Assembly (NCBI RefSeq): GCF_005144965.1
Contig: NZ_CP039704.1
Location: 930,001-994,000, forward strand
From: Hankyongella ginsenosidimutans
Lineage (GTDB): Bacteria > Pseudomonadota > Alphaproteobacteria > Sphingomonadales > Sphingomonadaceae
Direction of reading: 5' to 3'
Length of the DNA: 64,000 bases
Part shown: positions 418 to 19,463 of the stretch, in pieces
Position numbering within the stretch: the first letter of the stretch is position 1
Layout of the letters: every line of letters begins with the position of its first letter
The notes under the pieces: model-generated
What the model was told of the DNA's origin: nothing
Seen by the model: the letters and a program-made list of their open reading frames with translations, nothing else
Database searches by the model: none
Translations under genes and position numbers: made by a program

Positions 418-1142
418 ATGCAGATCATCTTCAGCAGAAAGGGGTTTGATACCGGATCGGGCGGCGCGCCTTCGCCGATCGTCGATGGTCGCCCCGTTTC
501 CCTGCCCATCCCGACGAAACGGCGCTCGTCCACTTGCTATGGCGACCTCGGGCTTGGCGAAACGGTGGCCAGGGTTACCAGGGGCCGGATCGGTGCTGAC
601 CACCTGTGTCACGAGGATCCCATGTTCTTCGATGGTCGCTGCCTGTTCGGGCAATGCGGCGCCGCCCAGTCGCACCTGCGAAGCCAGGGCGTCGGGCCTA
701 GCGACGTTTTCCTGTTTTTCGGACTGTTCTCGGAGGATGGCGGCCGCGAACGTCATCACCGTTTGTATGGCTATATGCGCGTCGACAGCGTCATCGAGGG
801 GGCCTGAGTTCCAGGCACCCGTGGGTCGCGGCAGCCCCGGCCGCATCCCCACACCATCGGCGAGTGGAACGCGAACAATTGCCTTTATGTCGGGCCTAGC
901 GGACTCGCCGGCAGTGCCGACCCGCGCCTGCGACTTACCACTGCTGGCGGGCCGCTTCGACTGTGGGACGTTCCCGCTGGCTAGCGGAAACCAAGCTCAG
1001 CTATCATGGTCGCACCGACCGGTGGCACGAGGGGAACCGTCTAGAGATCGTGTCGCGCGGCCAGGAATTCGTCGCGGACATCGGCGAGCGCGAGGAACCG
1101 CGCCGCTGGTTGGAGGAAATCATCGGGGTCCTTGAGGGATGA
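418..1142 (+). CDS. Nmad3-type putative nucleotide modification protein (frameshifted)
   Basis: The start MQIIFSRKGFDTGSGG followed by PSPIVDGRPVSLPIP, then LFGQCGAAQSHLRSQGVG with FLFFGLF, a central PHTIGEWNANNCLYV block, and LSYHGRTDRW plus SRGQEFV near the end match my recollection of the family called nucleotide modification associated domain 3. The reading frame changes near 800-855 and again near 975; the last segment runs in the third frame to TGA at 1140-1142. The stop overlaps the next start as ATGA, so the two genes are probably translationally coupled. The family was linked to modified-base systems by comparative genomics; no reaction is known to me. The frame breaks are probably sequencing deletions, as elsewhere in the window. 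Confidence 0.7.
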
Positions 1143-1690
1143 CGCGGATATTCCGGTACATTTTACAGACCGATACCGGGATGGCACCGTGCATCGACCG
1201 TGGCCGTCTAACGCTGGCCACGTGCAAGCCCAAAATCCGATCCAGCGCCCAGCCCGGCGACTGGGTGCTCGGCTTCTATCCGCACCCCTTTGAACGGGGC
1301 CTCGTGGCATGGGCCGGATGGATCGCGCGAAAGATTGAGACCGGAGACTACGAACGCGAATTCCGTGGGCGATCGGATGCCGTTTACCGTCAGAAGGCCG
1401 ACAGCACCTTCAAGCGTCTTCGCCCGGACTATCACCCAGGCACAAACGAGATCCGGAAAGATCTGTCGGCACCAGCGCTAGTCTACGACGAACAGGCGAC
1501 ATAGTATTTCGGAGACGAGCCACGGCTGTTGCCGGATGCCCTGATCCATCTCGCCGCTGGCGGACAGGGGCATCGTGTGAACGGTACTCGCGAAGACGAT
1601 CTGGCCACTTTATCGGCTTGGCTGCGCTCATGCTCGTTACCGGGAATTCTTGGTCGCCCCGTCATGCCCCCGCTACCCAGGTGCTGTCGC
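1139..1690 (+). CDS. Nmad2-type putative nucleotide modification protein with an in-frame TAG
   Basis: The ATG at 1139 overlaps the Nmad3 stop. The opening IFRYILQTDTGMAPC, then LATCKPKIRSSAQPGDWVLG, matches nucleotide modification associated domain 2. Frame 2 meets a TAG at 1502-1504 after LSAPALVYDEQAT, yet the same frame continues with YFGDEPRLLPDALIHLAAGG and GHRVNG, which are family-like, to about 1660. The protein is therefore either cut at 121 residues, read through, or miscalled at this codon. The 3' end is uncertain; 1690 is approximate. Gene order (Nmad3, then Nmad2, facing a helicase-nuclease) suggests a DNA modification or defence role, which is inference. Confidence 0.65.
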
Positions 1691-1759
1691 GCGGATGCGC
1701 AGGAAAATGCTGAGGGGCACTTTGGAGGTCAAACGACGGCAATGAGCGTCATTGTCGGA

Positions 1760-4700
1760 TCATGTCAGCATAGGTGCACATTCACCTATCGCCGCCTCGA
1801 TCCTCGATCGAGCCGAAGCACTCAGACGGCGCACTCCGAACATGCGGGCGATTTCCACGGGATCATCGCAACCCGTCGCGCGAAGCTCGGCCGAGGCGAT
1901 GTCCTCTATTTGCCTGATATGATCCTCGCTGGCGGGGAAGCGCGCCGTCACGCCCATCGCTAGCGCCTTCACGCTGTTCCAGACAAAAGCCTCGCGACCG
2001 CCATCGGGCACCACATGGTGCTGCTGGCGGGCTAGGTGCATCACCCTGTTATGAATCCGGTTTCCCGAGCGCTGGAAGCCATGAGCTCTGGCGATCCGGT
2101 TGACCAGCAGGCTTTCCGCGATGGGACCTTCGCTTTCGACCACGCGAGCGACCAGCTTGCGCAAGATCGGATAGTAGCTGGCCTCATAGAAGTTGGCGGG
2201 GTCGATCAGGCTGGTCAGTTCGCCGAAGTCGGTGAACCTGTATATTCCGGGGTCCGAAGACGCCGTCGCCGGAAACGCCATAGGCAAGAGGTCATCGACG
2301 ATCGCGCGCTTCGCGTAAACAACGGTTTCCCTGTCTTCGGCAACGAGCTCCTCGATATCCGCTTCCACGTTCGGGGAGGCCTGATCTTCGCTCGCCGCCG
2401 CCATTTCGGCGGCCTCGGCCCTAGCCTGGCGATCCTCTTCCAGTGCACTCACCAACGCAAGATGCAGCTGTTCGGCGGCCCGTTCGCGATTGAACCACCA
2501 CTCGGTCGACCAGATGCGCAGCAGCTTCCAGCCCAATCCCTCCAGGATGGCGGCGCGCACCTTGTCGCGATCACGCGCGGTCGCGGCGCTATGGTACGCC
2601 GCGCCGTCGCACTCCACCCCGACCAGGAAATCGCCCGGCCAGTCGGGATGGACGATGCCAAGGTCGATACGGAACTTGGAAACCCCTACCTGCGGCACGA
2701 CCTGCCAGCCCCGTCGCTGAAGTTCCTGGGCGACCGCCTCCTCGAATGGCGAGTCATAGCCGCCCTGTGACCCCGATCGGCCGATGCGATGGCATCCTTG
2801 CCGCGATGGGCGAATTCGATGAACGCCTTGAGATCGCGCACGCCGTCAGCGTTCGTGCGGGTGAGGTCGATCATTCCCGGATCGAACGAGGTGAACACCT
2901 GCATCTCGCGCCGCGCCCGCGTGACCGCCACGTTGAGGCGCCGCCAGCCGCCATTGGGATTCAGCTTGCCGAAATTCATCGACATCGTCTTGCCGCCAGG
3001 TTCGGTCGGACCAAAGCTCACGCCAAGCAGAATGATGTCGCGTTCATCGCCCTGGGCGGTCTCCAGATTGCGGACACAGACCGGTTCCAGCGTGGCTTCG
3101 GGGTTGAAGTGCCTCTCGATTGCCGGATACCTGCTTCGGGCCCTGTCGAGCAGGTCTTCCACCAGCTTCATCTGCTGGATGTTCATTGTGATGATGCCGA
3201 GGCTGAGCGGCCGGCCCTGTTCGTCGACAAAGGCCGGATCGCGCAGCAGGCGCACGGCCTCGTCGACGATCGCCTGGGCCTCGGCACCATTGGTGCGCTC
3301 CTTGCCCTTGGCGAAGACACCATCGACACGGCGCCACTTGACGGCGCTGGGCCGCGTATCGGGGGCGGGGAAGGTGACCAGCCGGTTCTGGTAATAGCGG
3401 ACGTTCGAAAAGGTGATCAGGCTCTCGTGCCGGCTTCGATAGTGCCAGTCCAGGTTGATCTGCGGCACTCCGGCGCCGAGGCACTCGTCGAGGATGCTTT
3501 CCATGTCCTCCTCGGTGTCGTCGTCCTCGCTGGCCGCGTTGCCCTGCCGCTCGAAGTTGTTGCTGGGCGGCATCTGGCGGGGATCACCCGCGATGATCAC
3601 CTGCTTTCCCGGGCCATGGCGCCGATGGCATCCCAGGGGTAATCTGGGACGCCTCGTCAAAGATGACGACGTCGAACAGGGCCTGATCGGGCGGAAGATA
3701 CTGGGCAATCGAAAGTGGGCTCATCAACATGCACGGAGCAAGGCGCGTGAAGGCGTCTCCCATGTCGCTCGCCAACTGCCGGATCGGCTTGCTCGGCCGC
3801 TGGAGCTGGAGCTGGTGGCGAAGCACGCCGTAGCCACTGCTTTTGGCGACCCCGTCCTTGTCGGGGATCGAGCCGCAGATTTTCGCGCGAATGTACTGCG
3901 AAGCCAGCTCGCTCATCCGATCGTCGATCGCCCGGAAGCGCTCTATGCAGTCCGCATGCTCGCCCGGCATGAAATTGCGCAGCAGGGGTTCGGCGTCCAT
4001 GCGATGGAACGCGAACCATCTCGCATAACCAGTCTCGAATTCGCGCACGGCTTCGGTCGCCGCGAAGTCGTCGTTTTCCAGCCCCTCGATCAGCGGCGAC
4101 AAGTCCAGCCGGATCGCTTCCTCGACGACCCTTTGCCAGTTCGTCCAGTCCCGCAATCGGCGCTCATGCGAAACGATCGCGGACGCGCGGGCTCGAAGCT
4201 TGGCTAGACCGGCTTCGCCTCCCGCTCGGCTGAGGCGATCAAACGCGTCCACCGCCTCGGTCATCGCGGTGGTCGCGCGATCAAGGCGCTTGGCGGCACG
4301 GTCTATCGCGCCATCGGGTCCCAGAAGTTCGTTGGCATCCACCACGAGCCGGGCGACGGCACCGCGCAGGGCAATCAGATCCTCTGTCCCGTCTGCCTCG
4401 GCGGCAAGAGCATGTCGAAGCTGTTCGCCCCGCTGGGTCGCGGATTCGACATCCTCCCTTTCGTGGCCAATCCCCGCCATCCGGGTATCGAGGACGCCTG
4501 TCCGGCCAACGCCTCGATCCGCTCCAGCAGATCATGCATGGTCGTCAGCCGTGGCAGGTCGCTTTCCGGATCGACCTTGCCCGCCACGCCGCCCGCCTGG
4601 GCAAGGCTGCGGGCGACCTTGCGCTTTGCCAGAGCCGACAGGAACCAGAACCTGGTTCCCGCCTCGGTCCAAGCTTCCCGAAGCCCCGCAAGATCAAGGC

Positions 4701-7600
4701 GCCTCGCAATCTCGGGCGCGTAGCTGGCGCTCAGGGCCTGCTCCTCGGCGAGATAAGCCTCGACGAGATCGATCCCCTTTCGGGCCGCGTCCACCTTTTC
4801 CACCATATCCGGCGCGAAGGCGAAGCGCAGATCGTAGCCGTGCGCCGCGAGACAGGCGTTGGTCAGCACCGTCAGGCGTTTGCCATCCTTCCGGCTGTCG
4901 CCATCTGTCGGAAGCTGGGTGGCTTTCGCAAGCCCCGCCACCGCCTCCTCGAAATCGTCGAGGAAGGCTGGCAACGCCCGGGCGGATGCGACGATCTGTT
5001 CCTGCCAGCCGTTGGTCCAGTCGGCATACGTGACGTCATCCAGTTCAACCGGAAGATCGCTCACGGATTGATAGGCGATGCCGAGCCGCCGCGCGACATC
5101 GCGCATGGAGTCGATGTCCGCCCTGGAATGCTGGGTTGCGAGCGGGAATCCAAATCGGGGTGTGTAGGCCTTGCCGTCGCGAACGACACGGCCAATGGCC
5201 TGATGGATGGTGTAGCCGCACTCTTCCTCTCGGTGGAGCAGGGCGACGGTCTCGTTCAAACGGTCTCGTAGCGACTTCGCCTGATCCGCCCGCATTTCCC
5301 AGACGGCGGCTGCGAGCTCATCGCGCGTATCCCATGCGGTGCCCAGCTGTTTTAGGACCGCCGACTTGGTCGCCTTTGCTGAGTGCAGCTCGAGGCAGAA
5401 CGGTGCGAGTCCCCTGTCGGTCAGGCGCCGGTGGACGACATCCAGCGCGGCCTTCTTTTCCGCGACGAAAAGCACCCGTCGACCCAGCGCCAGATTGTGC
5501 GCGATCATATTGGCGATCGTCTGCGACTTGCCGGTACCCGGCGGCCCATCGAGCACGAAATTTTGGCCCCGCGCCGAGGCTATCACGGCGCGAAGCTGGG
5601 AGCTGTCCGCCGGCAAGGGGTGAACAGCTCCGCCGGCGTGATTTCGCGGTCGAGATCCTCGACACGCGGCAGACCGCCCTGATCGAGGTTCACCGCGCCG
5701 TCGCGATCAATGAGATGGCGGACTAGCGGGCTTTCGCGAAGCAGCGCCTCGCGATCGACGAGGTCCTTCCACATGAGGTACTTGGCGAAGGAGAAGGTTC
5801 CCAGCGCCACGTCCTCGACGACCTCGAAGCCTGGCATTTCCTTGACGGCATAGCGCACGGAGCGCCAAATCCGGGTAACGTCGATGCCGGAGTGATCGCG
5901 CGGCAAATCGCCTTCCAGCTCGGGAATGGTCAGCTCGAAATCCTGCCGCAGCAACTCGAGCAGGGTGAGGTTGAACCTCGGTTCATCCTCGTGCTGGACC
6001 ATGACCACGCCCGACAGGGCGCTCTTGCGTTCCAGCTTAACCGGCAACAGTATCAGCGGCTCGATAGACCTTGGTCTCCTTGTCGGACTTCTTCCATTTG
6101 AGGAAGCCGACCGCGAGGAACAGCGTGTTGGCGCCGCCCTCCTCGATATCGGAATTGGCCTTGCGGTAGAGATCGATCAGCTGACCATCCAGCTTGTCCT
6201 TCGGAAGGAGCGCCAGCACCTCGCCGCGGTCCAGCGCCTCCGATGCGACCTCACGCCGCAGGCTGGAGCTGTTCTGCTGATTGTAGAGTTCTTCGTCGCG
6301 GTCGCCGGTATCGAGATCCGGCATGGGACGGATGCGGACCTTCTTTCCTGAAGCGAGCAGGTCTTCCAGCCTGCCGCTGTCGGGGCAAAAGAGCCGAACG
6401 GCCTTGGCGGTATCCGACAGGTGCAGCAGCCGGTTCGCGGTCGTCAGGTTCAGCAGCTTGCGTTGCCATTGGCGCACCCGCCCGCCCGGCGTGACCACCT
6501 CCTCCACGACTTCGGCATCGAATGATGGCAGCGATGGCGCTTCCTCCACCGCCTCCGCCACAGACACGGCCGGTTCCGCTGGTCCCCTTGGCGCCAAGGC
6601 AACGCCCAGTGGCCGGATTTTCTGCATCCGGGCGCGGCGGATATCGACCGCCATCTCGAATTCGTCATCCAGTCTTTCGTTGAGCTTCCCGTGGCCCGCC
6701 GCGATCGCCTGCGAAAACTGGGTGGGTTTTCCTGAGTGACCAACGTCGTCTCGAAGACGATCAACTCGTCCAGATCGAACCGCCGCCGGATTGCCGCCGC
6801 TTCATCCATGATAAGCGAACTGAACTCGGTCGGCTGCAGCCACACGCCAACGATAGCATGGCCCTTGGTCAGGATCACCAGGGGATTGAGGCTCGCCTGC
6901 TCCAGGGCGGCGGCGAAGAGCAGGGTCGTGTCGAGGCAGGTGGCCATCCCGCCATCCAGAATCTGGGACGGTGTCCTGACCTTCTGTCCGCTGCGCTCGA
7001 AACTTGCTGGCGGCAAGGCGTAGGAGAGTCGAAGCCCCGCCACAGCCGACCATATCGCCGAGGCGAGCTGCCATACACGGGTCCGTTCACGGCTTTGGTA
7101 TCCATCGATCGTGTCGGGCTTCCCGTTCGGCGCAGACAGTCCGAGGCGGCCTTGAGTACCTGGTCCACGGCCGGATCGTTCGGCATCACGAACGCCGGAA
7201 TCAGGTCGGCCATGGTGCCCACGCCGCCCCACTCGTTATGAGCAAGAAGTTCCACCGGCTGGCAGACCGACGCAAGTTCCTGATCGGCGGAATCCAGCAG
7301 CGTCAGGATCGCGCATGCGGTCATCGCCTCGGTAAGTCCCGATAGCAGCGTCCCATTGAGATGAACGTCGCGGTCTAAAATGACGATTTCGTCCTGCGGC
7401 GAAATTCTGTCGATGCGCCAGGATTTTTCGGTCAGGAATGGTGGGTCCGCCCGTAGAATCAGGCGGCACCCTTCAATCGCCACGCCCCCGCCATTGCGGA
7501 GCGTGAGTTCCCGGACCACTGGTGCCGAATTCTGGTGCGAGGCAAAGCCGATTTTGCCCGAAACAGTAGCCTCGATTGAAAACGTCATGTCTTGCCCCAT
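1760..7600 (-). CDS. Giant DUF4011-SF1 helicase-nuclease-DUF3320 protein (multiple frameshifts)
   Basis: Joining six or more frame segments gives about 1,940 residues in the order known for DUF4011/DUF3320 proteins. The N-terminal third carries a protease-like ILDGGMATCLDTTLLFAAAL block and DUF4011-type LNLTTANRLLHL. The SF1 motor has Walker A DGPPGTGKSQTIAN (near 5,540), Walker B DVVIFDEASQI (near 3,680), GDPRQMPP, and C-terminal AQGDERDI and LNVAVTRARRE. A Vsr/DUF559-like nuclease follows: VECDGAAYHSAATARDRDK then GWKLLRIWSTEWW. The end is a DUF3320-like region. Frame changes fall near 7,130, 6,700, 6,050, 5,610, 4,490, 3,600-3,650 and 2,700. ATG at 7588 is an alternative start preceded by GGGG. 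The same architecture was listed as a single-gene candidate phage-defence system (I recall the name Hhe). It converges on the Nmad genes. Confidence 0.85.
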
Positions 7601-8108
7601 TGAATATCTTGCCGCTCGAGACAGGCAATGATTACGGGATAATTATTCATTCAGTAAACAGCTCTGGAATCTGGATGAGCCGAAAACATTTTTCTGCCCA
7701 AGAATGTTGGTGCTCATGCCTCGAAAATCTGCTGCTGTGCCCTAATCGCTATAAGGGTGGCAGGGACGGGCAAGATTGAGCAACCACACAGGCATTGAGG
7801 TGGTGCGCAAAACTGCGTCGAATGCTCGCAATGAGGGCGCTTTGCAGGCTGTCCGCATTACCGGCTCGATCGACGGCTTCCGGAAAAGAAAGACATTCGA
7901 GGCTGACAACCTGAGTGACCGTGTCTGGGGCGATTTCGGACAGGCGGATCTTCATAGCGCGGGTGCGAAATCGGACATCGCTGCGGCCGATCGCCGGATA
8001 ACCTGCAACAGGCGATCTGCAGACTGCCAGGCTTTCTAGGGCCGTGTGGACGAATTTGTCTGAGTAGCGAATTCCCTATTCCCAAGCTGGATCGGCTCTG
8101 ATTCATAG
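7601..8108. other. Region without a recognisable gene
   Basis: This stretch lies upstream of the giant helicase gene and before IS3 remnants. Several short open frames exist on both strands (for example 7776-8039 on plus, 7749-7955 on minus) but none has a family pattern I recognise or a convincing ribosome binding site. It should contain the helicase promoter just right of 7,600, where the DNA becomes AT-rich (about 7,625-7,700). It may also hold the degraded tail of a gene cut by the IS insertions. Confidence 0.4.
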
Positions 8109-8239
8109 GGTGAACCGCCCTGGGATTGTCGGAGGCTCCAACTCCTGAGAAGGTGGAGCCCTTATGAGCAAGACAACGAACAAGTTTTCACCCGAGGTTC
8201 GTGCCCGTGCGGTGCGCATGGTGCTGGATCATGAAGTAG
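8109..8239 (+). mobile_element. IS3-family left-end fragment with orfA start
   Basis: The segment has the look of an IS3-family left end, with TGAACCGCCCTGGGATTGTC near 8,111, followed by a GGAG leader and an ATG at 8164 that begins [20 protein letters not shown], the usual N-terminus of one IS3 OrfA subgroup. The frame is abandoned after about 25 codons, at 8,238-8,240, where sequence of a second IS3 element in the opposite orientation begins. It is a truncated remnant and cannot encode a transposase. Confidence 0.7.
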
Positions 8240-8763
8240 CCGTACCGCGTTTGCGTCGCCGCCAGATCCCGGATGCGCAGCATCAAGGCTGACTGACCGG
8301 GCAGGTGCGACACATAGCGAACCGACGACCGGTCGACGCCAAGCGCCAGGCAACTGCGCCGTTCGCTGACACCGTGGGTCGCCTGGACGTGCGCGACGAG
8401 CTCGCGCCACCGCCCAGGCGTCAGAGCTTTTGACAAAATGTCCTGCAGGATATGCTTGTCCAGCGACAGGTCAGCGACCAGCTGCTTGAGCTTGCGGTTC
8501 TCGTCCTCGAGTTGCTTCACCCGCCGCAGCTCGCCAATGCCAAGCCCGCCGTAGACCTTCTTCCACCGGTAAAACGTCTGCTCCGAAACGCCCATCCGGC
8601 GGATCACCTCCGCCACCGGCGTGCCAGTCTCCGCTTGCTTCAGCGCGAACGCAATCTGCTCCTCGGTATACCTCGACTTCTTCATCTTCAGCTCCTTCCT
8701 CATGATCCATCACAAGGCCAGAAAACTCTCACTCAAACCGGATGAAAAATAGGGAGGACGTCA
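8238..8763 (-). mobile_element. IS3-family element remnant: orfA and start of orfB
   Basis: On the minus strand from 8703 the protein begins MRKELKMKKSRYTEEQIAFA and has the helix-turn-helix RRMGVSEQTFYRWKKVYGG and the leucine-rich ending of OrfA. It runs on, in one frame, into OrfB N-terminal sequence (RWRELVAHVQ, RRSCLALGVDRSS) and stops matching after ATQTRYGY, where the other IS fragment is joined. OrfA and OrfB normally lie in overlapping frames, so the continuous frame is either an indel or a natural fusion. The outer end near 8,763 reads TGACGTCCTCCC on the minus strand, a likely terminal inverted repeat. The DDE catalytic domain is absent, so the element is dead. Confidence 0.8.
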
Positions 8764-8965
8764 CCCGCGCGAAGTCGATACGGAGCTTTCGGGTTGCGCC
8801 AAGAAATTCGGATAGCCTCAGATTCCACTCGACTTGGGCTCTGTTCCACGCATTGCTGTCCGTGCGGCGCGATGCAGCAACGCACGCTCCGGGTCATGAG
8901 ATTGCCGGGGCTAGAGGTCGTAGGGCCAGGCATGGTGCCTGGCATCCCCAAACCGGAGACCTCGA

Positions 8966-9664
8966 ATGACCCAAAATATTGAACCCAACAGCGACGCAGC
9001 CGGAAGCGATACCATCGAACCTACGACACCAGTCCGTGCCGCCCAGACCAAATCTGCCATCGTCCAGAAACTGCTGTCCCGGAACAAGGGTGCAACGCTC
9101 GCCGAGATCATGGCGGCCACCTGCTGGCAACCGCACAGCACGAGGGCGTTTCTGACTGGCCTACGCAAGAAGGGCCGAGTTGCTGCGCGAGACGCGAAGC
9201 GGCGGCGAGACCAGTTGGCGGATGGAGCGCTGAGCATGGCCGCGCTTGCGGAGCAGATTGCCGGACTGGTGGAACTGCCGCCAGCCCGGCTGCGCGCCGA
9301 GTGGCGGCGGCTGCATCGTAGCCAGCCCATGCCCGAAGGTATGAGCAGTGATCTGCTGGCGCGGAGCATCGCTTGGGCGTTACAGGAGAAGGCGCTTGGC
9401 GGTCTGCCGCCTGCGCGTCGGCGCGAACTGGACCGGCTGGCCAGACAGCTTGCGGAAACGGGCGATCTGGACCTTGAACGCCAGCGCCAACTCAAAGCCG
9501 GCACACGGCTTGTGCGGCAATGGCACAGCAGGACCTATGTCGTGACCGTCCATGATCAGGGCTATGAGTTTGACGGGCGGCGCTATCCCTCGCTCACACC
9601 GATTGCCCGCGAGATCACCGGTGCGGCGTGGTCTGGTCCGCGCTTCTTTGGTCTTAGAGCCTGA
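8966..9664 (+). CDS. DUF3489 + DUF2924 proteins, apparently fused by a frameshift
   Basis: Residues about 28-70 (KSAIVQKLLSRNKGATLAE, TCWQPHSTRAFLTGLRKKG) are DUF3489, a small winged-helix-like domain. From SMAALAEQIAGLVELPPARL to the end is DUF2924 (LLARSIAWALQEKALGGLPP, RQWHSRTYVVTV, GPRFFGL). After RKKG the actual frame gives unfamiliar residues, while the next frame gives ELLRETRSGGETSW and a TGA at 9230-9232, a normal DUF3489 ending, with the DUF2924 ATG at 9236. A deleted base near 9,175 therefore joins two genes. The two families usually precede a large serine recombinase, as here. The final stop (9662-9664) lies inside palindrome C1. Confidence 0.8.
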   Translation: MTQNIEPNSDAAGSDTIEPTTPVRAAQTKSAIVQKLLSRNKGATLAEIMAATCWQPHSTRAFLTGLRKKGRVAARDAKRRRDQLADGALSMAALAEQIAGLVELPPARLRAEWRRLHRSQPMPEGMSSDLLARSIAWALQEKALGGLPPARRRELDRLARQLAETGDLDLERQRQLKAGTRLVRQWHSRTYVVTVHDQGYEFDGRRYPSLTPIAREITGAAWSGPRFFGLRA

Positions 9665-9715
9665 TCGGTTGAGGTTGAAGCATGTTGCTTCAACCGAGGG
9701 CGTGAATCAGGCTCT
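9656..9715. repeat. Palindromic element C1
   Basis: The outer stem AGAGCCTGAT/ATCAGGCTCT is 10 bp (9656-9665 with 9706-9715). The inner stem GGTTGAAGCA/TGCTTCAACC is 10 bp with a 3-base loop. The element supplies the stop codon of the DUF2924 frame. A near copy (C2) lies at 33185-33245. Confidence 0.85.
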
Positions 9716-9726
9716 TATCAACAATT

Positions 9727-9778
9727 TAGACCATGATTCACGTTTCAGAGCAATTCCATCTGAAACGATCATGGTCTA
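9727..9778. repeat. Palindromic element E1
   Basis: The outer stem TAGACCATGAT/ATCATGGTCTA is 11 bp and the inner stem CGTTTCAGA/TCTGAAACG is 9 bp, with a 3-base bulge and a 9-base loop. It sits 20 bases before the recombinase ATG. C1 plus E1 recur together, in the same order and spacing, at 33185-33308. Confidence 0.85.
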
Positions 9779-9798
9779 GGCCCAAAGGACCAAGAACG

Positions 9799-11338
9799 AT
9801 GACCCGCAAGACTGATCGCAGCACACTGCGCTGCGCCATCTATACGCGCAAATCAACCGAGGAAGGGCTGGAGCAGGCCTTCAACAGTCTTGATGCCCAG
9901 CGGGAGGCCTGTGCCGCCTATATCACGAGTCAGCGGCACGAAGGCTGGCGAATGGTTCCCGATCTCTATGACGATGGCGGCTATTCCGGCGGTAATATGG
10001 ACCGGCCGGGCCTTGTCCAGTTGCTCGAGGACGTGCGCGCGGGTAAGGTCGATGTCATCGTCGTCTATAAGGTCGACCGGCTGACTCGCAGCTTGGCCGA
10101 CTTCGCCAAGATCGTCGAGGTGCTCGACAAGCAGGGCGCCTCGTTCGTCAGCGTCACTCAGGCCTTCAATACCACCACCAGCATGGGGCCTCACCCTCAA
10201 TGTCCTGCTCTCCTTCGCCCAGTTCGAGCGCGAGGTGACGGGCGAGCGCATCCGCGACAAGATCGCCGCCTCCAAGGCCCGGGGCATGTGGATGGGCGGG
10301 GTCGTGCCGCTGGGTTACAAGGTCGAGGATCGCAAGCTGGTCGTCGTGCCTGAAGATGCCGAACGGGTGCGGCGGATCTACTGGCGTTATCTCGAACTTG
10401 GCTCGGTACTCGCGCTGGAAACCGAGCTTGCCGAGCAGGGCCTGCGCAGCCGCGTGCGCATCGGCCGCACCGGCAAGGAATATGGCGGCAAGCCGTTTAG
10501 CCGGGGCGCGCTCTATCTGATGCTTCGCAACCGCATCTATCTGGGAGAGGTTTGTCATAAGGGTAAAGTGTACCCTGGCGAGCATGGGGCGATCATCGAC
10601 GAGCCGCTATTCGCCCAGGTCGCGACGATGCTTGAACAGAATGGTATCGATCATGCCAATGCCGTTCACGCCGACCAGCCCAGCCTGCTCTGCGGTCTCG
10701 TCCGGGATAGCGAGGGCCGGCGCATGAAACCGGAACATGCAACCAAACGCGGCGGCATTCGCTACCGCTATTATGTTAGCAGCAAGGATAGCGGCGCCGG
10801 GACGAAAGGCGTGCGCGTTCCGGCAGGCGATCTGGAGGCCCTGGTTGTCGCGGCGCTCCGACGCGAAGGCCGCCTTCTGGAAACTCCGGATCGAACCTCA
10901 ATTGCCAATATTCTCAGTCAGGTCATCATCCATCGCGAAAGGGTTGAGCTTCTTCTGAGCCACCATGGCGACGCAGCGCCAATGGTGATCCAGGCCTCCT
11001 GATCCGGCGCGGCAAGGAAACGCGGCTTGTGGAGCCCGCCAGCGATCTCGTCGCGCCACGGCCAGACCCCGCGCTCATCAAACTGATCGTGAATGCGCAT
11101 CGGGTACGCACCGCGGTCTTCTCGGGGCAACATGGCACCGTCCGTCACGCCGCCGAGGCGCTCGGCTATCGGCAGGATTATTTCGCGGTCCTGCTGCGTC
11201 TCGGTTTTCTGGCGCGACATCGTCACCGCCATACTCGATGGCAGGCAGCCGCCCCAGCTTAACCGCCAACGTCTCGCGCGCGTCTCTGGGCTTCCAATCG
11301 ACTGGCGGGCACAACGCGAACTGCTCGGATTCGCTTGA
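9799..11338 (+). CDS. Large serine recombinase (frameshifted)
   Basis: The start at 9799 reads MTRKTDRSTLRCAIYTRKST, with the serine-recombinase catalytic region SLDAQREACAAYI, DDGGYSGGNMDRPGL, and VDVIVVYKVDRLTRSLADFA. A frame change near 10,190 leads to LSFAQFEREVTGERIRDKIA, then the recombinase domain with a resolvase-to-zinc-ribbon order (PLGYKVEDRKL, RNRIYLGEVCHKGK, LLCGLVRDSEGR). Further shifts near 10,990 and 11,215 lead to RPDPALIKLIVNAHR, ALGYRQDYFAVLLRLGFLA, and the end DGRQPPQLNRQRLARVSGLP plus LGFA, typical of alphaproteobacterial members of about 510 residues. It works with the DUF3489/DUF2924 pair as a module on integrated elements; its att site is not identified. Confidence 0.88.
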
Positions 11339-11360
11339 ATTTTCGATAGCTGCTCCATCG

Positions 11361-11381
11361 GATGCGCAACTGTTGCGCATC
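11361..11381 (+). terminator. Hairpin after the recombinase
   Basis: A perfect 9-bp stem GATGCGCAA/TTGCGCATC with a 3-base loop lies 22 bases after the recombinase stop. There is no T-run after it, so it is only a possible terminator. The rest of 11,382-11,566 shows no gene. Confidence 0.35.
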
Positions 11382-11566
11382 GCATCTCCCGACCGCCAAT
11401 TTGACGCTCACAGAAAATGCCGCGACCCAGCCCCTGAATCCCGCGCCAAATCAGTCTCCTGGACGGTGCTGCAGATGCTCTGCCTCGCGCAAACCCACGG
11501 AAAATCCGGCAGAACTTCCGACACGATGGATTCGATGTAACGTACTGTTTTAGAACGATAAAATAA

Positions 11567-11642
11567 TGGTGCCCAGGGACGGAATCGAACCGCCGACACA
11601 GGGATTTTCAATCCCTTGCTCTACCGACTGAGCTACCTGGGC
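11567..11642 (-). tRNA. tRNA-Phe (GAA)
   Basis: Read on the minus strand it is a 76-base cloverleaf with acceptor GCCCAGG/CCTGGGC, a D-arm TAGCTCAGTCGGTAGAGC, anticodon loop TGAAAAT (anticodon GAA), T-arm GGTTCGATTCC, and an encoded CCA. It marks the border between the accessory region to the left and core genes to the right, and is a plausible integration boundary. Confidence 0.95.
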
Positions 11643-11727
11643 CAACCGTGCCGGAGCATGGCCCGGCATTGCAGAGCGGCGGCTATATCGCCCCTCTTGC
11701 AGCTTGTCCAGCCCAAGCATCGCCAAG

Positions 11728-11904
11728 TCAGGCCGAGGGGTCCTCAAGCGTATCCTGCGGCGGGCCGGGCACGCGATACCCTTCGTTCAGCCAGTTGCGC
11801 AAATCCCGATCCTGACACAGGCGCGAACAGAAGGGCGCATGCGCGGGCGCGGCCGGCTTGTCGCACAGCGGGCAATGCTCAGGAGACTCAGCAGTATTCG
11901 ACAT
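11728..11904 (-). CDS. yacG: DNA gyrase inhibitor YacG
   Basis: The small zinc-binding protein has CPLC followed by CSRLC, the four-cysteine YacG site, then DLRNWLNEGYRVPG, the hallmark motif. YacG binds GyrB and blocks DNA binding by gyrase. The ATG at 11904 (MSNTAESPEHCPLC) overlaps the stop of the upstream RNase E/G-like gene; an in-frame ATG at 11916 is an alternative. It is intact, and the order infA-maf-RNase-yacG is standard in alphaproteobacteria. Confidence 0.92.
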   Translation of the reverse strand: MSNTAESPEHCPLCDKPAAPAHAPFCSRLCQDRDLRNWLNEGYRVPGPPQDTLEDPSA

Positions 11905-12865
11905 GAACATGCCCATAGCCGCTCATGGCCGACTCCGCCACGATGACAAGCGCAGCGCCCAGTCTTTGCGCGATCTCCGCCTGCAGCGCCTGCTGCACCT
12001 GGAGCCAGTGCGCGATGGCGGGCGGAGCGGTGATGGTGCGCACGCCGGCACCGATGCTGCGCTGCGCCTGCGCCAGCAGCTCCAGCGCCAGGGTGGCGGT
12101 ATCCGCGCCGTGCCGCCCGACGCCGCAACGGACGTCGAGCGCGCTCGGGCGCGGCCTCGCCCGCACCAGCTGCATGAGGCCGTAGCCGTTGACGGCCGTA
12201 TGCTCGCAGGGGCGTGGATCGTCGCGGACAGCGTCCAGCAGCACGTCCGTCACGGCCTGCCGGTCTGCCCGGCCGGTCATGGCGCGAAAGTCGATCAGCA
12301 CGCTGCCGCCGACCTGATACAGCCGCAGCAGCCGCGCGATCTCCGCCGCCGCCGCCTGATTGGTCTTGCGTGCGTCGTCGCCGCCGTCGACATCGATCAC
12401 CATTCCCCGCGCGTGCGCTCGAACGACAGGGCGAAGTCGCCGCAGGGGAATTCGCCGCAATCGGCCAGGTCCAGCGCGTCGTCGACGCCGTCCAGAGTCT
12501 GCCCCAGGCGAGGCCGGGGAAGCGCACCTCCAACGGCGGCCCGGGTGCAATCAGCCCGACGGAGCTTGCATGCCCCTCCACAAGCCGGGCGCGCGCCGGG
12601 CGCAACCGGCCGGGCTCGGGAATGGCAGCGCGCACGATTTCGGCCAGCACAAGCGTGCCTTCAGGGCAGGCGTGCGCCCGCTCCAGCGCTGTCGGTGCGC
12701 CGCCCCACTCCAGCATCGCCGCGACGCCGTCACGCCGCACCCGTCCGGCCAGTACCACCCCGGCTCCGGCCCGGCATCCGCACGCAGCAGGTGAATTTCC
12801 AGCAGACGACCATCGACGCCGTAGCCGCCGATGCGCACCTCCCCGGCCGGCGTTCGCCACGCCAG
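11888..12865 (-). CDS. Ribonuclease E/G-like protein (frameshifted)
   Basis: The frame joined from three segments begins near 12,850 (WRTPAGEV, then VRIGGYGVDGRLLEIHLLRA), continues through GTLVLAEIVRAAIPEPGRL, and ends with the RNase E/G-like catalytic-region remnant RGMVIDVDGGDDARKTN plus QVGGSVLIDFRAM. The short form (about 310 residues, no S1 domain) is common in this operon in alphaproteobacteria and is usually annotated as ribonuclease or RNase E/G family. Frame changes fall near 12,700 and 12,430. The true start is obscured by the overlap with the maf stop at 12,867. The last residues overlap yacG. Confidence 0.75.
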
Positions 12866-12866
12866 A

Positions 12867-13438
12867 TCATGGCAGGCCGCTGGCCGTCAGCAGTTGGCGC
12901 ACCTCATGGAGCGGCAGGCCGACGACCCCGCTGTACGAGCCGGAGAGGAAGCTGACGAAGGCGGCGGCACGGCCCTGAATGGCGTAACCGCCGGCCTTGC
13001 CGAGACCTTCCCCGCAGGCAACATAGGCCGCACGCTCGGCGTCACTCAGGCGTTTGAACTGCACGACCGTCGCGCTCAAGCGCTCGCGCAGGCGACCGCC
13101 GGCATCGACGACCGCGACCGCCGTATGCACCGTGTGCCGCCGGCCGGACAGCAACCGCAGGCACTGGTCCACCAGCTCCGGAGTCGTGGCGGCAGGCAGA
13201 ATGCGTCGACCACAGGCGACCGTCGTGTCCGCGGCCAGCAGCACCGAAGGCTGCGGCGCGCGCGCGGCTACCGCCTGCGCCTTCTCCCGTGCCATGCGCG
13301 TCACGTAGGCGCGCGGCAGCTCGCCGGAACGCGGTGTTTCGTCGATCTCGGGCGCAAGCAGAAGATCCGGCGTCACGCCCAGTTGCGCCAGCAGGTCGCG
13401 CCGACGCGGGGACGACGACGCCAGGACAAAACCGTCAT
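12867..13438 (-). CDS. maf: Maf-like nucleotide pyrophosphatase (start frameshifted)
   Basis: The conserved opening LASSSPRRRDLLAQLGV lies just before the long open frame and is out of frame with the ATG at 13438 by one base: the TTTTGTCC stretch lacks one G expected for VLVLASSS. The body has EIDETP, AREKAQAVA, VLLAADTTVACGRRIL and EGLGKAGGYAIQG, as in Maf house-cleaning enzymes, which hydrolyse modified or canonical nucleoside triphosphates such as dTTP and UTP. It lies 9 bases after infA and overlaps the RNase gene, so it is within the infA operon. Confidence 0.9.
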
Positions 13439-13446
13439 CGATCCGG

Positions 13447-13665
13447 CTATTTGAAGCGGTAGGTGACGCGACCCTTGGTCAGATCGTAGGGCGTAAGTTC
13501 CACCAGGACCTCATCGCCCACCAGCACGCGGATGCGGTTCTTGCGCATCTTGCCGGCGGTGTGGCCGAGGATTTCGTGATCGTTTTCCAGCTTCACCCGG
13601 AACATGGCGTTCGGCAACAGTTCCAGCACCCTGCCGCGCATCTCGATCAGTTCTTCCTTCGCCAT
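13447..13665 (-). CDS. infA: Translation initiation factor IF-1
   Basis: The 72-residue protein [20 protein letters not shown] ... [12 protein letters not shown] is an intact S1/OB-fold IF-1 with the characteristic [14 protein letters not shown]. It binds the A site of the 30S subunit during initiation. The open frame extends upstream to 13785, but the size and N-terminus of IF-1 fix the start at 13665. It is the first gene of the operon with maf, the RNase E/G-like gene and yacG. Confidence 0.97.
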
Positions 13666-13842
13666 TCGGACCCTTTTTGCGTCATGCAGAAGCCCAGCCA
13701 GAAACCGGCTGCGCAAGCGATGTGCGGTCATGGCGCAAGACTGCAGGAAATGCAAGCAGCTCCAGCATCCGTGCTCTTTCGGCATGGACGCTGGCGGCCC
13801 CGCACACTAGGTAACTCACCCGACATCACCCGGACCGCTGCC

Positions 13843-14534
13843 ATGACCAATGTTCACACGCCCGCCGAGCTGGTGCTCGCCGTGCCCAAGGGGCGCATCC
13901 TCAGGAGGCGCTGCCGCTGCTCAATGCCGTCGGGATCGTGCCGGAAGCCGCCTTCCACGACGACGCCTCGCGCGCGCTGCGCTTTGCAACCAACGTCCCC
14001 GGCCTCAGCATCATCCGTGTGCGCGCGTTCGATGTCGCAACCTTCGTCGCCTTCGGCGCGGCGCACTTCGGCCTTGCGGGCAACGACGTGCTGATGGAGT
14101 TCGACTTCCCGGAGATCTACACACCCGTCGACCTCGGAATCGGCCAGTGCCGCATCTCGGTGGCCGAACCGGCAGAACTGAGCGCCAACGACGATCCGGC
14201 GACCTGGAGCCACGTACGCATCGCCACGAAATATCCGCACGTGACCCGGCGCTACTTCGAAGCGCGGGGCGTGCAGGCGGAATGCATCAAGCTAAACGGC
14301 GCCATGGAGCTCGCGCCCCAGCTCGGCTTGTGCCAGCGCATTGTCGATCTGGTGTCGAGCGGGCGCACACTCAAAGAAAACGGCCTGATCGAAGTGGCGA
14401 CCATCGCCCAGGTCAGCACGCGCCTGATCGTCAACCGCACCGCCTTCAAGACCCGCCCGGCGACACTGGCACCCTGGGTGAACGCATTCCGCAGCCTCGT
14501 CAGCCCGGAGGCCGAACGTGCCGCGCTGGCTTGA
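13843..14534 (+). CDS. hisG: ATP phosphoribosyltransferase (short form; frameshifted)
   Basis: HisG makes phosphoribosyl-ATP, the first step of histidine synthesis. The start at 13843 gives [20 protein letters not shown]; the expected [12 protein letters not shown] follows in another frame because CTCAGGAGG lacks one A. The rest is intact: [68 protein letters not shown]. With about 230 residues it is the short HisG that needs HisZ, which is not in this window. Its stop overlaps hisD. Confidence 0.93.
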
Positions 14535-15819
14535 GACGACCGACCCGGATTTTGCACAGTCTTTGCGGCAATTGTGCAGGATCGCCGCGAGACGCCGGAC
14601 GATGTTGCAGACGTTGTGCGCAGCATTCTGGCCGATGTGCGAGCGCGCGGGGACGACGCCGTATTCGATTATACCGCGCGCTTCGATCGCATCGCGCTGT
14701 TGCCGGAGACCGTTCGGGTCAGCGATGCGGAGATTGCCGCCGCCGTCGATGCCTGCCCTGCTGACACGCGGGATGCGCTCGCCCTGGCGGCGGCGCGCAT
14801 TCGTGCGTTCCACAGCCAGCTGCGCCCTGGCGACCACGAGACGACCGACGACCTCGGGGTGCGCGCAGGCGTGCGCTGGACGCCGATTGAGGCGGTCGGC
14901 CTTTATGTGCCGGGCGGGCGCGCCGCCTATCCGTCCTCGGTGCTGATGAACGCCATCCCTGCCATCGTCGCCGGCGTCTCCCGGCTGGCGATGACCGTGC
15001 CCGCCCCCGACGGCGTGCTCAACCCGCTGGTCCTGGCAGCGGCGCAGTTGGCGGGAGTCCAGGAAATCTACCGGATCGGCGGCGCCAGGCGATTGCGGCA
15101 CTGGCGTTCGGCACCCGCACCATCCCGGCGGTCGACAAGATCGTCGGCCCCGGCAACGCCTATGTCGCGGAAGCCAAGCGCCAGGTGTTCGGCGTGGTCG
15201 GCATCGACATGGTGGCCGGCCCTCGGAAATTCTGGTGCTTGCCGATGCGCGCAACGACCCGGCGCACATCGCAGCCGACCTGCTGTCGCAGGCCGAGCAT
15301 GACCCGGTCGCACAGGCAATCCTTGTGACCGACGACGCTGGCTTCGGTCATGCGGTCATGGCGAAGGTCAAGGCTCACCTGGCGCGCTGGCCGGACGACA
15401 GCAGCGCGCGCCAAAGCTGGGAGCGTTATGGCGTCGTGATCGTAGTCAGGAACCTTGCCGAGGCGGTTCCGCTGATCGATGCGCTGGCGGCCGAGCATCT
15501 GGAACTCGCCATTGCAGAGCCTGAGGAATTGCGCCTGCAGATTCGCCACGCCGGCTCCATCTTCCTCGGGCGGCATACGCCGGAGGCTATCGGCGACTAT
15601 CTCGGTGGCCCGAACCATGTGCTGCCGACCGGCCGCCGGGCGCGGTTCGCCTCCGGCCTCTCGGTGAGCGATTTCATGAAGCGCACCACCTACCTGGAAT
15701 GCCCGCCCGCGGCACTGGCAACGCTGGGGCCGGCAACCGTGACGCTGGCGCAAGCCGAAGGCCTGCCTGCGCATGCGCTCTCGGTTAGCTTGCGGCGGAA
15801 CAGCGTGCTTCCGGATTAG
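14518..15819 (+). CDS. hisD: Histidinol dehydrogenase (three frameshifts)
   Basis: HisD oxidises L-histidinol to histidine with two NAD+. A GTG start at 14518 overlaps the hisG end. Frame changes occur near 14,565, near 15,085 (GGCGCCAGGCG lacks a C for [10 protein letters not shown]) and near 15,220 (GGCCCTCGG lacks a C for [10 protein letters not shown]). Across them run [52 protein letters not shown], and GGPNHVLPT, the full set of HisD signatures. All residues expected in the zinc and substrate site region appear present, so the gene is probably functional in the organism. Confidence 0.94.
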
Positions 15820-15823
15820 AACG

Positions 15824-15980
15824 TGATGACTTTAGGTGGAATCGTCATTGCGAGGAGCCGCAGGCGACGTGGCAATCCAGAGTTCTTTGTTTTGCACTAT
15901 GGATCGCCATCCCGGCTTTCGCCGGGACAGGCCCAGCTTTGCTGCCTCGCGATGACGTGTGGTTCAACCTAAAGTCATCA
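15824..15980. repeat. Long inverted repeat enclosing a GTCATTGCGAGG REP sequence
   Basis: An 18-base arm TGATGACTTTAGGTGGAA pairs, with one mismatch, with TTCAACCTAAAGTCATCA at 15963-15980. Inside are the common bacterial repeat CGTCATTGCGAGGAGC and a partner CCTCGCGATGACG. The right half (GTCAACCTAAAGTCATCA) recurs at 33463-33480, and related pieces lie at 28,440-28,500. Confidence 0.75.
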
Positions 15981-16043
15981 TACTTTAGACCATCATCGGC
16001 GCAAAAGCTTCAACCGTAGCCAATCTGGCTCTCACTCTTTGTG

Positions 16044-16107
16044 TAGACCCTGCTTGTCCGTTTTGATTGCCTCGCAAAAGTGATTCAATCAAAACGGGAA
16101 GGGTCTA
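16044..16107. repeat. Palindromic element D1
   Basis: The inner stem CCGTTTTGATTG/CAATCAAAACGG is 12 bp with a 16-base loop; the outer stem pairs AGACCCT with AGGGTCT. The reverse complement occurs at 28221-28283 (D2). Upstream, 15,981-16,043 holds degenerate bits of other elements (TAGACCAT, GCTTCAACC, GGCTCTCAC). Confidence 0.82.
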
Positions 16108-16123
16108 AGGACCAGAAACGGTG

Positions 16124-16198
16124 GGGCCTGTAGCTCAAGGGTAGAGCTGGCCGCTCATAACGGCTTGGTTGCGGGTTCGAATCCTGCCGGGCCCACCA
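16124..16198 (+). tRNA. tRNA with CAU anticodon, probably tRNA-Ile2
   Basis: The acceptor GGGCCTG pairs with CGGGCCC, the anticodon loop is CTCATAA, the T-arm GGGTTCGAATCC, and CCA is encoded. The overall sequence resembles alphaproteobacterial tRNA-Ile(CAU), whose C34 is modified to lysidine by TilS, more than elongator or initiator tRNA-Met. The D-loop looks one or two bases short, perhaps another deletion error. Confidence 0.85.
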
Positions 16199-16222
16199 GC
16201 CTCGCGCCGCTGCCCGCCAACG

Positions 16223-17394
16223 CTACAGCAGCTCGATCGCCAGCGCTGTTGCCTCGCCGCCGCCGATGCACAGGCTGGCGACGCCGCGCTTCAAGCCACG
16301 CGCTTTCAGCGCCGCGATCAGCGTGGCCGTGATGCGCGCGCCGCTGGCGCCGATCGGGTGGCCGAGCGCGGTCGCACCGCCGTTGACGTTGAGCTTTTCG
16401 TGCGGGATGTCGAGGTCGCGCATGGCGATCATGGCGACGGCGGCGAACGCCTCGTTGACTTCGAACAGATCGACGGCGTCCAGCGCCCAGCCAGCGCGCG
16501 CCAGCACCTTGCGGATGGCGTCGACCGGCGCGGTGGTGAACTGGGCCGGGGCATGCGCGTGCGCGGCGGTCGCCACGATGCGGGCGACCTGCGGCAGGCC
16601 CAGCCGCTCGGCGGCGTCCGCGCGTGCCAGCACCAGGGCCGCTGCACCATCGGAAATCGAGGCGGACGAGGCAGCGGTGATGTTGCCGTCCCGGGCGAAG
16701 GCCGGCTTCAGGGTCGGGATCTTCTCCGGCTTGGCCTTGCCGGGCTGCTCGTCGGTGTCGACCAGGGTCTCGCCGCCGCGACCGCTGACAGTCACCGGGG
16801 CGATCTCGTCCCGGAATGCGCCGCTGTCGATCGCCGCATTCGCCCGGCGCAGACTTTCGATGGCGTAGGCGTCCATCTCGGCGCGGGTGAACTGATAGGC
16901 GCGCGCGGTTTCCTCGGCGAATGCGCCCATCGGCTTGCCGCGCTCGTAGGCGTCTTCCAGGCCGTCCATCATCATGGTGTCGATGACGGTGTCGTGGCCG
17001 ATGCGTGCGCCGGAGCGGTGCTTGGGCAGAGCGAAGGGCGCGTTGGTCATGCTCTCCATGCCGCCGGCGACGATCACATCCGCGGTCCCGGACGCCAGCG
17101 CTTCGAACGCCATGATCGCGGCCTGCATGCCGGAGCCGCACATCTTGTTGACCGTGGTCGCCTCGACCGACTGCGGCAGCCCTGCGCCGAGCGCCGCCTG
17201 CCGGGCGGGCGCCTGAGGCCGGTGGGCAGCACGCAGCCCATGTAAATGCGGTCGATATCGGAACCCTGCACCTGCGCGCGTGCGACTGCCGCCTTGACCG
17301 CCGCCGCGCCAAGATCGACCGCCGAGGCCGGGGTCAGCACACCCTGGAAGCCGCCCATCGGCGTGCGTGCGTATGAAGAAATGACGATATCCAT
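16223..17394 (-). CDS. Acetyl-CoA acetyltransferase (thiolase; one frameshift)
   Basis: This thiolase condenses two acetyl-CoA, or cleaves acetoacetyl-CoA. The start at 17394 gives MDIVISSYARTPMGGFQGVL. The nucleophile region VNKMCGSGMQAAIMAFE, the VNGGATALGHPIGASGARI histidine loop and the LCIGGGEATALAIELL end carry the Cys-His-Cys catalytic set. A frame change near 17,215 falls where GQAPARQAALGAGL is expected. With about 390 residues the length is normal. The gene is alone between tRNA(CAU) and mnmC; a role in butanoate, polyhydroxybutyrate or ketogenic amino-acid metabolism (acetoacetate from tyrosine, see the 37-41 kb block) is possible. Confidence 0.9.
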
Positions 17395-17424
17395 GGCCGG
17401 CCTCCGCAAGATGATTTTGCGGGC

Positions 17425-19178
17425 CTACATAGGCGACGCCGGGCCGGGCGTCCACCGCATCGGGTCGACCAGCGCAGCGGCCGGTCGCGGCACCGGCGAC
17501 GGCGCGCCAAGCGCAAGCGCGGCCACATGTTCGGCAAGCAGCGGCGCGAACAGGAAGCCGCGCCCGCCAAGACCGGTCAACGCATACAGCCCTGGTGCCA
17601 GCAGTCCGGCGATCGGCTGGCGATCCGGCGTGCTGGCGCGCACGCCGGCCTGGCCCGTGAGCGGCACGTCATCAAGGCGCGCGGCGAGGCCGGGCAGAAC
17701 GGCGGCAAGCGTCGCCCGGTTGCGCGCATGGTCGTTCGCCCGTTCGTCGCTGCCGGTATCGCCCCGGTCGTGGGTCGCGCCGAACAGCACGCCATCGCGC
17801 GCCGGCACGACATAGCCGCCCCATGCGGCAGCCGGGACCGGGCGGCGCGCGCAGCAAAGCTCACCTGCCCGCGCATCGGCTCCAGCGGCAGCGGCCACAG
17901 CGCCTTGGCGGCAAAGCCGCCGGCCACGCAGACGATCGCGAACACCTCCGCCCCCGCCGCCGTCACGACCCGCCAGCCGTGCTCACCCTGCTCAAGGCGT
18001 TCGACAGGCGCTTCCTCAACATTCTCGGGAAGCCAGGCCGCACGCAGCACCGCCGGATCGACCGTCAAGGCCGATGGGACAGCAAAGCCGCCCACCGCCA
18101 CCGGTTCGCCCAGCTGTGCCGACGCGGCGGCGGGCGACAGGCGCGCAAGCGCGTCCGCCCCAGCACATGGTCGCGGGCGATGCGGTCGAAACGCGCGCTG
18201 TCCTTCGGCGTGCGCTCCAGCCGCACCAGCCCACGCGCGAGAATGGCCTGCGGGGCGGTCGCAGCGATCAGGTCGACGCTGCGCCGGAATGCCTGCGCGC
18301 ACAACTGCGCCTCCGGGCCGTCACCGGCGATCAGCCTTGGCGAGATCAGCGCGGCCGGATTGCCAGACGCCATCGGCCCGGCGCTGAAGACCGTGGCAGG
18401 CACGCCCAGCGCGGCAAACGCCCGCGCCAGCGCCGCCCCGGCGATCCCCGCGCCGACAATCGCGACGCGCGGCATCGCGGGTTCAATACGGTCGCCCGGC
18501 CAATGCGCTTCAAGCCGCGCCCGTTTGCGTCCGAACCCGGGTTGCCGTGCGACGGCGAAGCCCTGCGCCGCCAGGCCGCTGCGCACCGCGCCTGCAACCG
18601 TGTAGGTCGCGAGCCGCGCGCCGGGCGCGCAGTGCGCGGCGACCTGCGCCAGCACCGGCTCCCGCCACATCTCCGGGTTGCGTGCCGGGGCGAAACCGTC
18701 AAGGAACCAGGCGTCGGCCTTGCCTTGCCAGGCGTCCAGCGCCGCCTCGACCTCAAGGATCGCAAGATCGAGCGTCGCCCCAAGCGCTGGCCAGTCGATG
18801 CGATGGAAGCCGGGCGTTGCCCCGGCCAGCGCTCCAGGATCGGCTGCGACAGCGCTGCAAACTGGGGCCATTCCGCAAGCGCACGGGCAAGATCGGCCCG
18901 GGCCAACGGGTATCCTTCGACAGAAAACACATGAAGGTGACCGGACGCCGGTCTGGTGCGCTGCCAGAGGTCGAGCAGCGCCAGCACATTCAGCCCGGTG
19001 CCGAACCCCAGTTCCGCGACCGTGAACTGCTGGCGCGCCTGCCAGCGCTCCGGCAGGCCGCAGCCGGCCAGGAACACCGCCTGCGTCTCGGCAAGCCCCC
19101 GTCGCGGGAGAAATAGATGTCGTCGAAGCGGCGCGAACGCAGGATGCCGTCACGCCAGTCGGCGTCCGTCTCGCTCAC
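17425..19178 (-). CDS. mnmC: Bifunctional tRNA wobble-uridine enzyme MnmC (frameshifted)
   Basis: MnmC finishes mnm5s2U at tRNA position 34. The GTG at 19178 begins VSETDADWRDGILRSRRFDD. The methyltransferase half has FTVAELGFGTGLNVLALL, LHVFSVEGYPL and AWFLDGFAPARNPEMW; the FAD oxidase half has VAIVGAGIAGAALARAFAAL, then GNPAALISPRL, and ends TGQAGVRASTPDRQPIAGLL, LGGRGFLFAPLLAEHVA. At least four frame changes occur (near 19,100, 18,830, 18,130 and 17,860), yet the order and total length (about 580 residues) fit an intact two-domain MnmC. Confidence 0.9.
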
Positions 19179-19369
19179 GCCGGCTGGGTGCGGCGGAAGG
19201 TGGCGATCAGAACGCCTGGACCGCTGTCTTCCATGAACCCCTGCGCGCCTGTACCCGGTATAGGACGTCTCCCTGTCCGCAAACGTACACGAACTGTCCG
19301 CTTTCGGACAACCCGAGGGTGTAGAAATTAGCCATCCTGTATTTTTATTACAATTTTTCAATCCTTTAT

Positions 19370-19463
19370 CGCACAAGAGCCCGATCTGTTGAGGCAGCAA
19401 GCACGGTTGCTTCAACCGATGGCGTGAATCAGGTTCTTTTCAACGAATGAGACCAGGCGTTGG
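19370..19463 (+). repeat. Left copy of a 94-bp direct repeat (contains element C3)
   Basis: It matches 26182-26275 at 90 of 94 positions by eye, in the same orientation, both copies starting CGCACAAGAGCC and ending CCAGGCGTTGG. Inside, 19376-19437 is a palindromic C-type element: AGAGCCCGAT against ATCAGGTTCT outside, GTTGA-AGCAA/TTGCTTCAAC inside. The halogenase stop and last 12 or so codons lie in it. Confidence 0.85.

Follow-up and report, generated by a model that had tools for sequence, protein, structure and literature searches.

A tRNA-Phe island of Hankyongella ginsenosidimutans appears to carry a candidate helicase-nuclease defence gene and a recurrent Nmad3-Nmad2 pair as separate cargos

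Introduction

Near the left end of a stretch of 64,000 nucleotides from Hankyongella ginsenosidimutans (assembly GCF_005144965.1, contig NZ_CP039704.1, positions 930,001-994,000 of the forward strand; the whole stretch is hereafter called the window), two small genes of the Nmad3 and Nmad2 families face a giant helicase-nuclease gene on the opposite strand. The Nmad names reportedly originate in a 2013 NAR paper. Our search of the literature by name found no paper on the function of Nmad2 or Nmad3. A preliminary description of this DNA had joined the three genes into one defence system, in which the Nmad proteins would mark or read DNA and the nuclease would attack unmarked DNA, and had named the lack of the same neighbourhood in other genomes as the outcome that would speak against it. 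Do the three genes work together, or do they share a mobile island as independent cargos?

Results

State of the three genes

The genes of interest lie at the following window positions.

418 to 1142, plus strand: Nmad3 (PF18754), from Pfam and from tblastn matches collinear with L085, L086, L087 and L020 in two frames
1139 to about 1690, plus strand: Nmad2 (PF18753), from Pfam and from tblastn matches collinear in one frame over 1139-1687
1784 to 7588, minus strand: giant DUF4011-SF1 helicase-MTES_1575-DUF3320 gene (PDC-S37/Hhe-like), from Pfam, PADLOC and tblastn, with relatives at L204 and L068
1763 to 2698, minus strand: C-terminal part of the helicase, with the MTES_1575 (Vsr-like) nuclease and DUF3320, from Pfam
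5586 to 6654, minus strand: DUF4011 region of the helicase, from Pfam

Pfam bears out the identities proposed for both Nmad genes. The first piece of Nmad3 matches PF18754 with E 8e-48, and in the scan of its own genome the gene scores 195.5 bits over positions 2-211, above the curated cut-off of 27. Nmad2 matches PF18753 with E 3e-15 and scores 66.5 bits over positions 1-184, one TAG included, above the curated cut-off of 26.1. The stop of Nmad3 and the start of Nmad2 overlap as ATGA at 1139-1142, as had been described, and the pair also recurs elsewhere (see below). Both genes are convergent with the helicase gene. The latter was correctly recognized as a giant SF1 helicase with a Vsr/DUF559-like nuclease: Pfam finds, in the right order, DUF4011 (E 1e-29), an AAA_11/AAA_12 SF1 helicase, an MTES_1575 REase domain overlapping DUF559 (E 8e-29) and DUF3320 (E 3e-17). 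The gene is indeed on the minus strand, but 7588 is a better choice of start than 7600.

The presence and layout of the three genes thus agree with the preliminary description, but alignment to relatives showed that none of the three is intact as sequenced. Comparison with relatives by tblastn places a change of frame in Nmad3 near 975-978. Nmad2 contains an in-frame TAG at 1502-1504, at a position where its relatives have a conserved Trp (WYFG). The helicase gene has seven frame changes, dividing it into eight segments that are collinear with its relatives over the full length. Such lesions could mark the three as decaying pseudogenes that are functionless now. However, rpoB and hisD (14544-15795, adjoining the island), which are essential or biosynthetic genes, are also split in this assembly, a single contig of 2.88 Mb with a completeness of 86.7 and a contamination of 6.5. 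Per kb, the helicase gene has about 1.2 frame changes and hisD about 1.6. Because hisD and rpoB carry the same kind of damage, the broken frames are likely due to assembly error rather than to decay. The helicase gene is moreover still full length, collinear and highly similar to its relative at L204, and we regard decay of the three genes as very improbable. Frame changes are abundant across the window as well as in rpoB, and ORF-based readings of this genome therefore need care.

An island at a tRNA-Phe gene

The pair and the helicase gene both lie on an island of about 17 kb, which extends between two copies of a direct repeat at a tRNA-Phe gene. Its right part, and the left repeat copy, are made up as follows.

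8188 to 8703, minus strand: IS3-type transposase orfA (HTH_Tnp_1)
8966 to 9664, plus strand: DUF3489-DUF2924 gene, adjoining the recombinase
9733 to 11332, plus strand: large serine recombinase (Resolvase, Recombinase and a weak Zn ribbon), with one frame change near 10190
11248 to 11572, plus strand: right copy of the 325-bp direct repeat, ending inside the tRNA-Phe gene (3' end)
11567 to 11642, minus strand: tRNA-Phe
contig positions 924076-924400 (L023:13977-14301), outside the window and about 5.6-5.9 kb left of its start: left copy of the 325-bp repeat

In addition to these features, the Nmad pair and the helicase, the island contains a ParB_N/N6_N4 DNA methylase and a PDZ protein. The two repeat copies are 99% identical over 325 bp, and the tRNA-Phe gene is the probable integration site. 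The claim of a recombinase-bearing island is thereby confirmed, with a serine recombinase inside it and a repeat copy at each end. The left repeat copy contains the end of a recombinase gene, so that a tandem insertion is possible; a tandem insertion or the remnant of an earlier element may account for the left repeat as well as simple attachment sites do. Synteny showed that the right flank (hisD, infA and maf region) is common to relatives. The left flank was not found in the regions fetched from relatives, and synteny therefore shows no empty tRNA-Phe site.

The helicase-nuclease as a candidate single-gene defence

PADLOC gave PDC-S37 as the best model for every matched segment of the helicase and for the full-length relatives scanned (L204 and L068, the closest relative being about 1940 residues long). 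Hhe ranks second. The window segments jointly cover positions 10-1532 of the PDC-S37 model, with gaps, and L204 matches positions 10-1531 with 1147 bits. The likeness to PDC-S37 is that of a single gene with DUF4011, an SF1 helicase, a Vsr-like/MTES_1575 nuclease and DUF3320, while about 370 residues upstream of DUF4011 fall outside the model match. The composition of Hhe (DUF4011-helicase-Vsr) is also present in one protein according to Pfam; in PADLOC, Hhe was not obtained as the best full-length match and its matches come in pieces, far below those of PDC-S37. These candidate families agree with the proposal that helicases of this type are single-gene phage defences. A literature search on the name PDC-S37 and on Hhe with Vsr found no paper. 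MTES_1575-type proteins carry, in their C-terminal part, a Vsr-type REase and a wHTH that overlaps DUF3320, and have also been found fused to HEPN and transglutaminase domains (PMC3710099); the window helicase likewise ends in Vsr-type REase/DUF3320.

The closest relative of the helicase comes from the same family (L204), with 74-97% identity depending on the segment; its neighbours are IS21, a resolvase, cas1 and a Cas9-like ORF. Other relatives adjoin Gabija (L203) or a type III methyltransferase (L206), and plasmid-borne relatives stand alone, some of them among insertion sequences. A defence hotspot of Pseudomonas aeruginosa has a DUF4011 gene as a core flank (PMC10250203). Since its relatives are found beside varied defence genes or alone, and in view of this hotspot flank, the helicase fits a candidate solitary defence gene. 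By inspection, the L204 stretch (G760:C27:139000-158900, 6953-19900) also holds a repeat array, cas2 and cas9.

The three-gene neighbourhood does not recur

Among 385 alphaproteobacterial genomes, Nmad3 is present in 11, Nmad2 in 13 and DUF4011 in 29, and only the H. ginsenosidimutans genome holds all three families. Nmad3 and DUF4011 occur together in one genome, versus 0.83 expected by chance. Nmad2 and DUF4011 do so in four versus 0.98 expected, a weak excess in which the two genes lie on different contigs outside the H. ginsenosidimutans genome. At the level of loci, no helicase relative was found near Nmad3 in the 98 Nmad3 loci listed; in 76 of these, the sequence extends 6 kb or more downstream. 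These loci comprise 80 of at least 505 from the genome collection (flanks of up to 10 kb), 8 from a viral scan and 10 from the class, a few duplicates included. Conversely, we looked at 24 helicase loci, including 19 that were fetched anew from the family, and found neither Nmad2 nor Nmad3 within their stretches of up to 20 kb; at L204, about 7 kb around the helicase gene is free of Nmad genes. The neighbourhood is thus confined to the window in all three samples, and the functional link between the pair and the helicase-nuclease is left unsupported by the very comparison that the preliminary description had set beforehand.

Recurrence and contexts of the Nmad genes

At no fewer than eight further loci (L017, L085, L086, L087, L131, L144, L160 and L259), Nmad2 lies directly downstream of Nmad3, and in most of them the two genes overlap (ATGA, GTGA or similar, mostly by 4 bp). 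In the Nmad3 tree, the paired genes fall on separate branches, with two well-supported clusters among them. By inspection, L087 (Sphingomonas sp. 37zxx) contains a tyrosine integrase and L131 phage head-type genes; a relaxase-like gene is common to L085 and L086, and a transposase to L144 and L160. Judged by these gene contents, the paired form is often located on mobile or prophage-like DNA. A third gene common to the eight loci besides the window was sought and none was found; several of these loci are on short contigs, and partners could therefore be missed. The paired Nmad2 and Nmad3 have no match in phage genome records, and plasmids gave just two distant Nmad3 matches.

Most Nmad3 genes in the loci listed are solo. 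In many Erythrobacteraceae, a solo Nmad3 is found in a recurring chromosomal neighbourhood (L114-L163 loci) with, by inspection, glycine-cleavage and acyl-CoA/valine-catabolism genes. This arrangement suggests a stable host role for solo Nmad3 in these bacteria, and given such a metabolic neighbourhood a defence function cannot be taken for granted in Nmad3.

Nmad2 has other company. L260 (G600:C2:224100-244000, 2914-15700) is a DNA phosphorothioation defence locus in which SspC/SspD and a convergent SspH flank an Nmad2 that belongs to the paired subfamily. At L262 (8064-10957), Nmad2 occurs with a ThsB-like TIR protein, MazG_C and UDG, and at L255 (1140-4004) a solo Nmad2 occurs with MazG_C and a borderline UDG. 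The TIR-Nmad2-MazG_C-UDG set looks like a conserved four-gene operon for nucleotide-sensing defence. It has Nmad2 in common with the island, whose Nmad2 belongs, however, to a divergent subfamily, is paired with Nmad3 and is without those partners. At L264, Nmad2 adjoins a gene for a SLOG-type protein. With Ssp, TIR, MazG_C, UDG and SLOG genes beside it, the Nmad2 family thus has defence-type neighbours, none of which recurs with a DUF4011 helicase in the loci found. DefensePredictor places NMAD among validated and predicted defence domains, as a predicted nucleotide-modification defence (PMC13092281).

Predicted folds of Nmad3 and Nmad2

AlphaFold2 models of the paired-type Nmad3 and of Nmad2 reached a pLDDT of 93.9 and 87.3, respectively. 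In Foldseek and VIA-align searches, both models match mainly EVE, DUF55/THYN1, YTH, ASCH and McrB N-terminal domains. The matches include THYN1 with 5mC DNA and the modification-dependent EVE-HNH enzyme VcaM4I, and the DISARM DrmAB structure is also among them. The scores are middling (best Foldseek E 0.03-0.3; VIA-align Z about 5-8.5), and searches of solved structures by sequence with the Nmad profiles gave no credible relative. Because the individual scores are middling, we consider it probable rather than proven that Nmad3 and Nmad2 have the fold of the EVE/YTH/ASCH (PUA-like) superfamily of modified-base-binding domains. Members of the superfamily bind modified bases, whether in DNA or in RNA (PMC7641849, PMC7897488), and the PUA-like fold is common in RNA-binding proteins too (PMC7641849). 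Since the models resemble reader folds, not enzymes, and the superfamily binds modified bases, Nmad3 and Nmad2 are probably readers rather than writers, and the suggestion that they mark DNA is unlikely. Their predicted fold is like that of THYN1, VcaM4I and the McrB N-terminal domain, but they have no fused nuclease and their ligand is putative; the fold alone is no proof of it.

Discussion

We consider it fairly likely that the island at tRNA-Phe carries two independent defence-type cargos, a single-gene helicase-nuclease and a pair of modified-base readers. The DUF4011 SF1 helicase with its Vsr-like nuclease would track along invading DNA and cut it. Nmad3 and Nmad2 would be produced by translational coupling and would bind modified DNA bases, or nucleotides, as sensors and not as modifiers. 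That the pair adjoins the helicase would reflect the build-up of cargo on such islands and not membership of one system. We infer this independence, and the presumed defence activity and the putative ligand have the same standing.

The convergent adjacency of the genes on one island could also reflect a linked system, in which the Nmad3-Nmad2 pair would read, or mark, DNA and permit the helicase-nuclease to attack DNA whose modification state is wrong. There is an archaeal precedent: standalone EVE proteins recur with a SWI2/SNF2 helicase-nuclease, a COG1743 methyltransferase and DUF499 (PMC7641849). A PUA-like reader lies beside a helicase-nuclease in both cases, but the helicase superfamily differs, and the EVE-SWI2/SNF2 association recurs whereas the Nmad-DUF4011 association does not. 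The convergence of Nmad2 with the giant SspH gene at L260 and the weak co-occurrence of Nmad2 with DUF4011 also point towards a link. Convergent genes, however, are not co-transcribed, relatives of the helicase are found as single genes, and the closest one, at L204, has no Nmad gene beside it. Together with the lack of recurrence of the trio, this makes a linked system improbable. The pair might instead have a housekeeping or regulatory role outside defence, reading modified RNA or damaged nucleotides and only riding on mobile DNA here. The Erythrobacteraceae neighbourhood of solo Nmad3, the PUA-like fold of many RNA-binding proteins and the match of the models to YTH m6A readers are consistent with such a role. 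Against it speak the integrase, relaxase-like or transposase genes that often accompany the paired form, and the Ssp, TIR and SLOG genes beside relatives of Nmad2, so that we think it unlikely, with a better claim than a linked system.

Independent cargos remain our preferred reading, and the main yield of this work is a recurrent, mobile and translationally coupled pair with predicted reader folds, not a three-gene system. The negative result for the helicase is of use too, since without it a chance neighbourhood might be described as a system. A bolder proposal, which we hold to be doubtful, is that Nmad3-Nmad2 is an undescribed two-reader module that senses hypermodified phage DNA and is able to work with nearby helicase-nucleases, including that of the island. 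If the pair does sense modified phage DNA, modification-dependent defence would gain a form that has two readers and no fused nuclease.

Two further observations concern mobility and modification. At L210 (G735, 6942-15831), a helicase relative is accompanied by divergent DUF3489, DUF2924 and serine recombinase genes, as in the window, and the helicase and the DUF3489-DUF2924-serine recombinase set may form a recurrent mobile unit. On the island itself, the ParB_N and N6_N4 DNA methylase fusion (L023:16785-18146) is apparently one open frame and is a possible modification writer.
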